Shown: piece after piece, positions 11,258 through 14,316 of the stretch | How positions within the stretch are numbered: position 1 is the stretch's first letter | How the letters are laid out: each line of letters begins with the position of its first letter | Origin: a virus | DNA length: 52,838 nt | Direction: 5' to 3' (one strand) | IMG/VR virus record: IMGVR_UViG_3300046533_000456 | Span: 1-52,838 of that record | Notes under the pieces: model-generated | Told to the model about the DNA's origin: nothing | Databases searched by the model: none | The model's input: the letters and a program-made list of their open reading frames with translations, nothing else | Made by a program: the position numbers and the translations under genes

Positions 11258-12114
11258 CCGTAACCGTCATCCGGTGCTCGGCGCTGACCGGCTATCCCGA
11301 CTGCCCGCGACGCGGCGCGTCGAAACTGTTCTGGCAAGAGATCCGCGCCGCCGGCTTCATGCTGCGCTACATCGTGCGCGGCATCGGCGCGATTGCCGGG
11401 ACTTCGGTTCATCGAGGCAGCACCTCGGTCCTCGGTGTCAAGGCGAGGACCGGGACGCTGCCGTCGCGCGCCGACGCCCTCGAGATCAGCCGCGAGATGC
11501 TCGACTTCCAGCTCGAAGAGGGCGACATCCAATTCGACGGGCCGAAGGGCGTCACGCACAACATCGGCGAGGCGGTCGATCAGGTGGCGCGCATGACCGG
11601 CGTCTATTACGACACCGTGGCGCAGACCATTAACCCGATACAGGTCGAGGAACGCCTGGAGGCCGAGGTCGAGCCGGGGCTCGTGCTGACGGGGCAACCC
11701 GACCTCATCTGTCGCGAGCCTGGGGCAATCCGCGATCTCAAGACCGGCGCCCGCCCGCCGATGTCGTTCGCTCCGCAGCTCGGCGGCTATTCCCTGCTCG
11801 CGCGCAGCCACAACCTCAACATCGAGCGCGCGTCGATCGATTACGTTCCCCGCGTCCGCAAGGGCAAGCCGCAGCCGGCGCCGCAGTCGACCCAGACGAT
11901 CATCGCCCACGCCGAGTCAGCGGCGGCGAACATCATCCGCCACATTCAGGCCGACCTGAACACCTTCCGGCACGGCGACGAGGCGCGGCGCATCAAACCG
12001 GGCGACCCGTGGGCGTTCCTCGCGAACCCGGCCTCGATGTTGTGCTCGCCGAAGTATTGCCCGGCTTTCGGCAGTGACTTCTGCCATGAAGGTCGAAGGG
12101 AAAAAGATGACTAA
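11254..12114 (+). CDS. Cas4/RecB-like PD-(D/E)xK exonuclease
   Basis: A 286-residue protein. The active-site core is GQPD (147-150) and RDLKTG (160-165), giving Asp150, Asp161 and Lys163 as the D-D/E-x-K set. Cysteines at C8/C17 in the N-terminus and a C-terminal group CSPKYC…FC (about 264, 269, 277) match the Fe-S-cluster layout of Cas4/AddB-type nucleases. Together with the protein at 12979 it probably makes a phage recombination pair, resecting DNA ends. A homing-type HNH gene begins inside its last codons, and the tail sequence FCHEG(R/K)R is duplicated at the end of that HNH gene. Confidence 0.8.
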   Translation: MTVTVIRCSALTGYPDCPRRGASKLFWQEIRAAGFMLRYIVRGIGAIAGTSVHRGSTSVLGVKARTGTLPSRADALEISREMLDFQLEEGDIQFDGPKGVTHNIGEAVDQVARMTGVYYDTVAQTINPIQVEERLEAEVEPGLVLTGQPDLICREPGAIRDLKTGARPPMSFAPQLGGYSLLARSHNLNIERASIDYVPRVRKGKPQPAPQSTQTIIAHAESAAANIIRHIQADLNTFRHGDEARRIKPGDPWAFLANPASMLCSPKYCPAFGSDFCHEGRREKDD

Positions 12115-12631
12115 GATTATCGCCATTTCCACGGGACAGGAAGTCCTCGTATCTGACGAGGACTACCACTGGCTGTCACAACGGACGTGGTATCTCCACG
12201 GTAATGGTTATGCGATGTGCGACCTGTGGGGTCGGCGCGGCGGAATGAAGGTGTTGATGCACCGTCTCATTCTGCTTGCGCCCGATACATCCACGGTCGA
12301 CCACGCCAACGGCAACAGGCTCGACAACCGCCGCGAAAATCTTCGGTTAGCGACCCAATCGCAGCAGAACGCCAATCGCCCGAAAATCACCGGACTGTCA
12401 CAATACAAGGGCGTCCATAAACGACAAGACAACCTGAAATGGGTAGCACAGATTAAAGACCCTAACAGGCGCACGATACACCTTGGCTCATTCACTTCTG
12501 AGGTCGCCGCCGCTATCGCTTATGACACCGCTGCGATACGGCTCTATGGTCAATTTGCGCGACTGAATTTTCGGGCGCCCGGCACCGAGTTTTGCCACGA
12601 AGGCAAGAGGGGAAGTGACAATGATGTTTGA
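12107..12631 (+). CDS. HNH-AP2 homing-type endonuclease inserted at exonuclease 3' end
   Basis: A 174-residue protein. Residues 48-82 hold the HNH nuclease core (LMHRLIL…VDHANGNRLDNRRENLRLAT). Residues about 93-155 form an AP2-type DNA-binding domain (YKGVHKRQDNLKWVAQI…LGSFTSEVAAAIAYDTAAIRLYGQFARLNF). After the normal AP2 ending (ARLNF), 19 residues follow that include TEFCHEGKRG, near-identical to the tail of the exonuclease just upstream. It starts within the exonuclease stop region and is more A/T-rich than flanking genes. Probably a mobile gene that inserted into the exonuclease end. Confidence 0.85.
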   Translation: MTKIIAISTGQEVLVSDEDYHWLSQRTWYLHGNGYAMCDLWGRRGGMKVLMHRLILLAPDTSTVDHANGNRLDNRRENLRLATQSQQNANRPKITGLSQYKGVHKRQDNLKWVAQIKDPNRRTIHLGSFTSEVAAAIAYDTAAIRLYGQFARLNFRAPGTEFCHEGKRGSDNDV

Positions 12632-12986
12632 CCTAAAGCGTCCATGCTCAAACTGTCCGTTTCGGATCGGGCAGGGGCGCTTGTTTGGCATGACGAAACG
12701 ACGGCTCGACGAGATTTTCCGGTCGCCTGCTTTTCAGTGTCACAAGACGCTACTTTATGACGATGATGGGCAACCAGTTGTCAACGGGCCAAAGACGCAG
12801 CAATGCGCCGGGCTGATGGCGGTTCTTCACCGGGAAGGTCAGGCCAACACGATCATGCAAGTTGCGGAGCGTCTCGGATACCTCGACCCGAAAACGCTTG
12901 ATCCTGATGGCGAAGCCTATGCGTCGATTGACGAGGCCCAGGCTGCGCATAGCGACATCGTAGAAGGACGCAAAAGATATGGCTGA
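12621..12986 (+). CDS. DUF6283-type zinc protein
   Basis: A 121-residue protein with PCSNCPFRIG (C9, C12), FQCHKT and TQQCAGL, a clear DUF6283-type metal site. The start is placed at 12621, where AGGGGAAG precedes two consecutive ATG codons. The C-terminal half is helical and ends in an acidic stretch. It is the better-preserved of two such proteins in this phage. Family function is unknown to me; its position between the nuclease and the annealing-like protein suggests a link to DNA metabolism. Confidence 0.75.
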   Translation: MMFDLKRPCSNCPFRIGQGRLFGMTKRRLDEIFRSPAFQCHKTLLYDDDGQPVVNGPKTQQCAGLMAVLHREGQANTIMQVAERLGYLDPKTLDPDGEAYASIDEAQAAHSDIVEGRKRYG

Positions 12987-14022
12987 CAACACCCCCGCCG
13001 CGCGGCCCACGCTGCTCCCGCCACGCGAAGCCAACCCGTTCTCCGCGGGCGAGATTGCCGTCAATGCGTCCGGCAACCGCGGGATCGTCGCCGTCGAGCA
13101 GCAGAAGGCTATCGCCGAAATTCAGGCCCGGCTGATTGTCGCCAGAGCCAACCCGCGCGACCCGATCCGGTCGATGGAGCTGATCCTCAACGACTGCACG
13201 CGGACCTCTCTGGCGAACAATGCGGTCTACCAGTATGCGCGCGGCGGGACCGATATCCGCGGTCCCTCGATCCGGCTCGCCGAGGCGATTGCCCAGAGGT
13301 GGGGCAACATCGCGTCAGGCCTCAAGGTGATGTCGCGATCGGGCGAGTATTCGGAGTGCGTCGCCTACGCGTGGGACTTGGAGAGCGGCTACTACGACGA
13401 GCGCCAGTTCCCCGTGCGGCACTGGCGCGACACCCGCCAGGGCGGCTACCAGCTCACCGACGAGCGCGATATCTACGAGCTGATCGCGAACATGGGCCAG
13501 CGCCGCAAGCGCGCCGTGCTGCTGACCGTAATCCCTGGCGACGTCACCGAGGCCGCCCTCGAGCAGTGCGAGCGGACGATGCATGCCGCCGCCGACGTCA
13601 CCCCCGACGGCATCAAGAAGCTGGTCGAGGCGTTCGCCGAAATGGGCGTCACCCAGCCGCAGATCGAGGCGCGGATACAACGCCGCCTCGACGCTGTGCG
13701 ACCGGCGCAGATCGTGATGTTGCGCAAGGTCTTCATGTCGCTGAAGGACGGCATGAGCGAAGTCGCGGACTGGTTCGAAGCCGTGGTGTCCCAGCCCACA
13801 GGCGAAGGTGACGCCCCGTCGGGGCAGCAGCAGCAGCAGCAGGGAACGCGGCGCCGCACGCGCCGCACCCGGGACGCGGATCCGCCGCCACCGTTGGCGA
13901 CCCCGGCAACCGAGGACAACAAGCCGGCGCCTACGACCGAGGACAACAAGCCGCCACCAGAGGAGGGGCGGCAGCAACAACAGCAACCGAGCGGTCGCCG
14001 ACAAGTCCAGTTCGAGGTGTGA
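12979..14022 (+). CDS. Putative phage recombination (annealing-like) protein
   Basis: A 347-residue protein overlapping the upstream gene by 8 bp. Residues 35-255 are a conserved globular region with the hallmark RGGTDIRGPSIRLAEAIA (about 87-104), then a strand-rich part (YSECVAYAWDLESGYYDERQFPV) and NMGQRRKRAVLLTVIPGDV. This family is common next to phage exonucleases, so a RecT-like single-strand annealing role is inferred from context. I do not see RecT or Erf signatures directly. The C-terminal 85 residues are disordered, with Gln runs, Arg clusters and a repeated TEDNKP, which could bind DNA or SSB-like partners. Confidence 0.65.
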   Translation: MADNTPAARPTLLPPREANPFSAGEIAVNASGNRGIVAVEQQKAIAEIQARLIVARANPRDPIRSMELILNDCTRTSLANNAVYQYARGGTDIRGPSIRLAEAIAQRWGNIASGLKVMSRSGEYSECVAYAWDLESGYYDERQFPVRHWRDTRQGGYQLTDERDIYELIANMGQRRKRAVLLTVIPGDVTEAALEQCERTMHAAADVTPDGIKKLVEAFAEMGVTQPQIEARIQRRLDAVRPAQIVMLRKVFMSLKDGMSEVADWFEAVVSQPTGEGDAPSGQQQQQQGTRRRTRRTRDADPPPPLATPATEDNKPAPTTEDNKPPPEEGRQQQQQPSGRRQVQFEV

Positions 14023-14034
14023 GGAGTAGTTCGG

Positions 14035-14316
14035 ATGCCACACGCTGTTTACGCCAAGATCGACGAAGAGCAATTCCAAGCCCTGGTGCGCGGCGAGGCG
14101 GTCGAGATCGAGAGCGTCGCCGGTCCCAAGGTTGTCGTCATCCTCGCCGACATCGGCTGGGCGTCGATGATGCGCGCGATCGAGGTCGCGATGAAGGGGG
14201 CGCGCGGCGGCGGGACCGACATCCGCGGCGGCTCAATGCGTCTCGCCGAGGACATCGCGGAGCGGTGGGGCAAGATCGGGACCGACCGCGACAAGTTCAG
14301 GTTCGACGAGGTGTAG
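14035..14316 (+). CDS. Small protein sharing the TDIRG module
   Basis: A 93-residue protein preceded by GAGGAG. The first 50 residues are an alpha/beta segment of unknown family. Residues about 57-82 (GGGTDIRGGSMRLAEDIAERWGKI) repeat, with about three quarters identity, the signature region of the annealing-like protein 0.9 kb upstream, and the DNA similarity is also high. It probably arose by a partial duplication or recombination and may bind the same partner or substrate. Function unknown. Confidence 0.65.
   Translation: MPHAVYAKIDEEQFQALVRGEAVEIESVAGPKVVVILADIGWASMMRAIEVAMKGARGGGTDIRGGSMRLAEDIAERWGKIGTDRDKFRFDEV

Follow-up and report, generated by a model that had tools for sequence, protein, structure and literature searches.

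The window, by which we mean the whole 52,838-nucleotide stretch of viral DNA analysed here, an IMG/VR record, carries on one strand an exonuclease gene, an HNH-AP2 endonuclease gene and two further operon genes, the coordinates of which are collected in Table 1 together with those of the smaller features that lie within them. The exonuclease reading frame, which matches phrog_69 (exonuclease) and gives a PDDEXK_1 match of 39.3 bits (Pfam cut-off 22), ends in GSDFCHEGRREKDD. Its cysteines C17, C264, C269 and C277 show the layout expected for a cluster, one being N-terminal and three C-terminal; these four, like D150, D161 and K163, are conserved without exception in the 31 relatives aligned. 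The AlphaFold2 model of the protein has a mean pLDDT of 94.1, and a fold search with this model against the PDB returned AdnA, ACE1 (the Argonaute-associated Cas4), Cas4, Dna2 and AddB, with VIA-align Z values of 11–16; a PDB sequence search with the exonuclease profile gave designed proteins only, the structural relatives named here coming from the fold search. By these invariant residues and the fold of the model, the protein is a Cas4/AddB-type nuclease with a predicted iron-sulphur site closed by the C-terminal tail. It shares with these nucleases the fold and the four invariant cysteines in the same layout, but differs from them in being a stand-alone phage exonuclease that adjoins a putative annealing protein, the cluster itself being predicted only. 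The latter protein is the product of the phrog_3657 gene, the position of which is held by a RecT-like annealing protein in two of the loci compared (L002 and L060, an Azospirillum plasmid), and which may, by position, be an annealing protein as well.

The HNH-AP2 protein contains HNH_3 at residues 59–88 (36.5 bits, cut-off 24.8) and a candidate AP2 domain at residues 99–148 (E 6.6e-5; 23.6 bits, which is below the Pfam cut-off of 33.3), and matches phrog_99 at 1.5e-35; its structure model, built from 4 sequences, is poor (pLDDT 57.5), with residues 154–174 falling below 50. The gene begins, as the sequence-only reading had noted, in the last codons of the exonuclease, with its ATG at 12107 and the exonuclease stop ending at 12114, so that the two frames share 8 nt. 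The purine run at 12095–12100, which likewise lies within the exonuclease tail, is by its sequence the likely ribosome binding site of the HNH gene. No stop of the gene's own precedes the displaced tail copy, and the frame accordingly continues through it to end in GTEFCHEGKRGSDNDV.

Table 1. Features of the exonuclease and HNH-AP2 region, in window coordinates
Feature	Coordinates	Strand	Basis and remarks
PD-(D/E)XK exonuclease, Cas4/AddB iron-sulphur type, 286 aa	11254..12114	+	ORF, Pfam, phrog_69, model; putatively the interrupted and restored gene
In-gene exonuclease tail, starting one codon past C264 and ending with the stop	12046..12114	+	Contains C269 and C277; GSDFCHEGR at 12070-12096
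GAAGGG purine run ahead of the HNH ATG, inside the exonuclease tail	12095..12106	+	Read from sequence
HNH-AP2 endonuclease ORF, 174 aa	12107..12631	+	ATG 12107, stop 12629-12631; Pfam, phrog_99
Displaced second exonuclease tail copy, GTEFCHEGKRGSDNDV, fused in frame to HNH-AP2	12581..12631	+	Six-frame score, alignment, survey of loci
Purine run AAGAGGGGAAG and, likewise within the displaced tail, the ATGATG with which the next gene begins	12605..12631	+	Read from sequence; function presumed
Small downstream gene, phrog_5443 (unknown function), weak DUF6283	12621..12986	+	ORF, Pfam, PHROG
Next operon gene, phrog_3657 (unknown function)	12979..14022	+	PHROG

The second tail copy and its occurrence among relatives

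The duplication of the exonuclease tail is most apparent at the protein level. When GTEFCHEGKR from the end of the HNH-AP2 frame was scored against the 86,179 stop-free 10-mers in the six frames of the window, it gave 60 with itself, 50 with the exonuclease tail and no more than 24 with any of the rest. The in-gene and displaced copies are identical at 18 of 27 nt, with 26 of 2,966 random 120-nt pieces of the window reaching an equal local alignment score. The FCHEG(K/R)R repeat, which had been proposed for both levels, thus stands for the protein and is weaker than claimed for the DNA, and the case for a duplicate therefore rests on the protein match and on its replication in a second phage, L030; with these, the duplicate tail in the window is confirmed. 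The accompanying proposal that the repeat includes the last likely Fe-S cysteine, C277, is reasonable as a prediction because of the invariance of the cysteines and the predicted AddB/AdnA/Cas4/Dna2 fold.

The relatives used for comparison comprise 50 distinct exonucleases, that of the window included, with identical sequences, L042 (the same as L026) and the mis-anchored L079 being left out. An HNH-AP2 gene lies directly behind the exonuclease in four of the 50, namely the window, L001/L030, L002/L026 and L012, and the site is therefore polymorphic for its presence, with the comparison of L026 and L024 being clean on both flanks. L001/L030 is IMGVR_UViG_3300045284_000220 and has the same architecture with a tail pair of its own: its HNH frame ends in ARLNF-Q-GTEFCREGAHGE and its exonuclease in GTSFCNEWQPK. 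Since L030 replicates the fused tail, misassembly of a single contig does not explain the arrangement in the window. The L002/L026 region is identical to that of Azospirillum oryzae A2P (L042), where it belongs to a prophage, and the HNH gene of L012, which is 40% identical, has no recognisable displaced tail. The start of the HNH gene overlaps the end of the exonuclease at all four occupied loci, by 8 nt in the window, 4 in L030, 8 in L026 and 4 in L012, and the HNH gene is the lower in G+C in all four (HNH/exonuclease 0.545/0.663, 0.540/0.659, 0.608/0.701 and 0.499/0.677), a compositional difference that is in line with a foreign origin of the HNH gene.

The tail motif [GS][ST]x[FW]CxE was looked for at 53 loci, in three frames and within 1500 bp of the exonuclease. 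It occurs downstream of the exonuclease in the window and L030 only, fused to the HNH gene in both, and upstream of it in none of the 53. Uninterrupted tails of the displaced-copy type are GTEFCHEGKKG in L049 and GTEFCHEGKRHHSPREV in L009, which are the uninterrupted relatives nearest to the window by exonuclease DNA (in a comparison without L076, which has no motif, and L077, which is on the opposite strand). In these relatives FCHEG runs on into KR or KKG, as in the displaced copy, so that uninterrupted genes do possess the FCHEG-type tail that the insertion reading calls for. The same tail was found at the end of no AP2 homologue among those read, which leaves that reading unrefuted: none of 18 phage HNH-AP2 records matches beyond residue 159, where the tail begins, none of the eight phage representatives opened among those 18 has the tail at its end, and an FCxE ending is found in none of the 14 readable bacterial HNH-AP2 homologues (16 loci, 2 of them with no readable match). 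The tail as a general property of HNH-AP2 proteins was rejected on these eight phage and 14 bacterial homologues. When other HNH-AP2 genes were compared with their upstream neighbours, a tail repeat above shuffles was seen in 0 of 8, and the tail duplication is therefore not general in the family. No further HNH copy with the tail occurs among the loci read in HNH searches of 385, 82 and 369 genomes.

In L054, which is uninterrupted, and in L012, which is occupied, the last two cluster cysteines are separated by four residues more than in the rest of the 50 tails. At L055 (3001–4153), the first ~54 exonuclease codons appear a second time ahead of the complete gene, with 160 bp in between, which is either a partial duplication in mirror image or an error of assembly.

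Origin of the in-gene tail

The clearest view of how a tail is exchanged comes from L026, which has uninterrupted relatives that are ~90% identical over both flanks. Against the uninterrupted L035, L022, L024 and L021, its exonuclease is 92–95% identical up to the C264 codon and 58–67% identical over the final 45 nt of the alignment. In all four pairs the C264 codon is where the best breakpoint falls, with Z values of 9.1, 9.0, 7.7 and 5.9 against shuffled maxima of 4.1, 3.9, 4.3 and 4.1; the start of the tail in the window (12046) is set at the codon of this breakpoint. Behind the HNH gene of L026, identity resumes at AGGAGTGA, which is the end of the relatives' exonuclease in the same frame, and the HNH frame stops on the relatives' own exonuclease TGA, again in the same frame. 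Because identity drops at C264 and resumes at the relatives' stop, it is shown that the element in L026 brought its own exonuclease tail together with the HNH gene and took over the host stop codon. The L026 HNH protein is without a displaced tail copy, with the relatives' stop codon being what remains at its end.

For the wider set, tail identity was regressed on body identity over 1,035 uninterrupted pairs, and residuals were obtained for the 50 exonucleases. The three lowest belong to L026 (-0.238), L012 (-0.229) and L030 (-0.191), that is, to three of the four occupied loci. Tails also differ where there is no HNH gene, as in the unoccupied L018, the residual of which is the fourth lowest (-0.176), and in L022/L021. 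In single pairs, the best breakpoint of L030 against L008 and L010 falls at the C264 codon, with values (3.1 and 2.9) that stay under those of the shuffles (maxima of 4.1 and 4.0), that against L014 lies at another position, and for L012 the best breakpoint ties with the shuffled maximum (3.8) at another codon against L013 and lies elsewhere, below the shuffled maximum, against L025; L030 and L012 fail to exceed the shuffles in single pairs because they are too far from their relatives. By the residuals, imported in-gene tails are supported for L030 and L012.

The in-gene tail of the window, with a residual of +0.037 (40th of 50), is not deviant, and no breakpoint in its exonuclease beats shuffles. 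The displaced copy of the window is nonetheless the one nearer to uninterrupted tails over the 27 nt compared, by 38 against 9 with the rest being ties, and that of L030 by 41 against 7, the rest again being ties; these counts come from 50 rows per locus, many of them related and one (L079) mis-anchored. No relative of the window exonuclease above 64% protein identity was found in scans of viral contigs with the exonuclease and with the HNH protein, or among genome contigs, phage and plasmid records and 82 plus 385 genomes. Since the in-gene tail is not deviant and no closer relative is at hand, we infer its import from the analogy with L026 and from the similarity counts (38 against 9 of 50), which suggest that this tail, too, may have come from elsewhere; as neither deviance nor a breakpoint is seen, it has to be supposed either that the donor belonged to the same phage group or that nothing was imported.

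If there was no import, the native tail would have been kept in place and the resident's tail copied downstream, with no foreign tail in the window. The fit of the in-gene tail to the body of the exonuclease and the lack of a breakpoint are what this would predict; we nevertheless consider it unlikely, given that the two copies are about as distant from each other as the tails of different phages, that the displaced copy is the one resembling the relatives' tails, and that L026 displays import directly.

Among uninterrupted loci, L021 and L022, which are of the Azospirillum type and 92% identical, differ by a tail patch from codon 262 onwards (AWGTS against AHGTA), with a maximum Z of 5.0 against a shuffled 4.2 for L022 versus L021. 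The patch amounts to a tail exchange with no HNH gene present today, and perhaps records an old visit.

A putative tail-carrying element and its alternatives

On balance, a free-standing homing-type HNH-AP2 gene probably invaded the 3' end of the exonuclease gene, carrying a spare 3' end with it. The mobile unit would consist of the exonuclease tail plus the HNH-AP2 gene, with the tail being physically part of the element because the HNH start codon and its likely ribosome site lie inside it. The HNH protein would cleave uninterrupted alleles at the conserved tail or close to it, double-strand-break repair would copy the tail and the HNH gene from another phage, and the left exchange would fall in the conserved NPxSxLC stretch. 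The arriving tail would complete the host nuclease, the last iron-sulphur cysteines included, and the host's own tail would be pushed behind the HNH gene, where, translated in frame, it would form the C-terminus of the HNH protein and supply the stop codon. The displaced tail would vary in length, extending from the GTEFC codons on in the window and L030 and being limited to the last few bases in L026. An insertion into the 3' end of the nuclease gene, with one tail restoring the nuclease and the other fused to the HNH frame, had already been suggested from the sequence of the window, and the relatives' tails and L026 support it. The broader proposition, on which we are evenly divided, is that phages harbour a self-restoring free-standing homing element, composed of a replacement gene tail and an HNH-AP2 gene, which lacks a stop codon and borrows that of the host gene, thereby keeping translation running into the next gene, and which would swap the cysteine-bearing nuclease tail between distant phages. 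In this self-restoring reading, the element could enter a conserved and functionally critical coding end because the new end comes along with it.

Tail-carrying insertion has to be weighed against a single fusion of tail and HNH gene in some earlier host, after which the tail would have travelled with the element, and the displaced copy would not be the present host's tail. This would account for the displaced copies of the window and L030 being identical at 23 of 27 nt, compared with 65% for the exonucleases and 70% for the HNH genes overall. Conservation is, however, just as high in the final block of the HNH gene (0.83) as in the tail, so that the similarity between the window and L030 is not special to the tail; moreover, the copies diverge straight after the motif (KRGSDNDV against AHGE), and L026, with an HNH protein 63–64% identical, ends on the stop codon of its own host. 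A single earlier fusion therefore appears to us no less doubtful than copying in place. That the HNH-AP2 protein has in the cysteine-bearing tail a functional part of its own, and no leftover, is very improbable: the tail is in frame and free of stops in two phages, but it is missing from all eight phage homologues opened, from all 14 bacterial ones and from L026, and the model, itself weak, has a pLDDT below 50 there. Chance likeness of two short peptides, which 26 of 2,966 random pieces would allow at the DNA level alone, has next to no probability and was rejected on the gap between a protein score of 50 and the next of 24 among 86,179, and on the recurrence in L030 of a feature that is absent from the other 51 of 53 loci.

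Known mobile genes and the downstream operon

The tail-carrying insertion favoured here works, as judged by comparing sequences, like the C-terminus-carrying mobile ORFs (mORFs) of fungal mitochondria, homing in the phage being putative. According to the accessible portion of the fungal source (PMC3630166), mORFs occur in atp6 of Allomyces macrogynus and in atp6, atp9, cox2 and nad3 of Glomus sp., with an endonuclease ORF lying behind an imported 3' end that completes the host gene and the native 3' end being displaced downstream; native ends are 91–98% like those of relatives, compared with 64–81% for imported ones. The outcomes described there are a displaced native end, a replaced native end (fully so in atp9) and an insert open into the native frame. 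Each has a phage counterpart: a duplicate of the host 3' end flanks the endonuclease ORF in the window and L030 (it is absent in L026 and L012), the native end is replaced in L026, and the HNH frame is open into the native tail. The in-gene end is foreign in L026, and a foreign one is favoured in L030 and L012, whereas in the window it is not deviant and the displaced tail is the one nearer to relatives. As far as the same portion extends (PMC3630166), the fungal systems differ in employing LAGLIDADG or GIY-YIG endonucleases, with a phage HNH-AP2 gene and a recombination exonuclease as host gene being found here, and in being accompanied by transcript data, the phage arrangement being known from sequence alone. 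The phage tail, moreover, is ~20 codons long, with the HNH start overlapping the restored stop.

Phages are also known to carry free-standing intronless homing endonucleases, such as the T4-like seg and mob genes and the IPA-HNH genes of ICP1, which, in the excerpts available (PMC2988022, PMC10448857), insert between genes and cut hundreds or thousands of bases away. The gene described here resembles them as a free-standing HNH or HNH-AP2 gene adjoining a conserved phage gene, but those excerpts mention no duplicated host-gene end (PMC2988022, PMC10448857). In the ShiLan-type case, as partially accessible (PMC11855218), an HNH gene is inserted out of frame in a phage methylase and the host frame reads through the insert; in both cases, then, a phage gene harbours an HNH gene and remains usable with no known splicing element, the difference being that the host gene here is closed by a replacement tail. 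The accessible parts of the phage homing-gene literature (PMC2988022, PMC12724721, PMC2248197, PMC10448857), most subscription papers falling outside this scope, yielded no phage case of such a tail-carrying insertion. If the interpretation is true, it would provide a phage route into protein-coding ends that we otherwise found described from fungal mitochondria only, and would explain how a homing gene can sit at the last iron-sulphur cysteines of a recombination exonuclease with neither intron nor intein. Gene ends would then be places of part exchange between phage enzymes, with the attendant warning that an odd C-terminus of an HNH gene, or an odd tail of the gene before it, can be the scar of an insertion.

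The end of the HNH gene in the window overlaps the start of the next gene by 11 nt, and the displaced tail may persist as the holder of that gene's ribosome site, an idea that fits the window and L026 but not L030, where the next gene seemingly has its own purine-rich site further down. The next gene in the window (12621–12986) is low in G+C (0.552), and its DNA relatives in the phage collection belong to Erythrobacter phages, where the surroundings are different and a DNA methylase lies nearby; by these sequence features, it seems to be mobile on its own. Behind the phrog_3657 gene, a short ORF at 14035–14316 resembles part of that gene (41.6% over 14068–14283), a partial duplication within the same operon.
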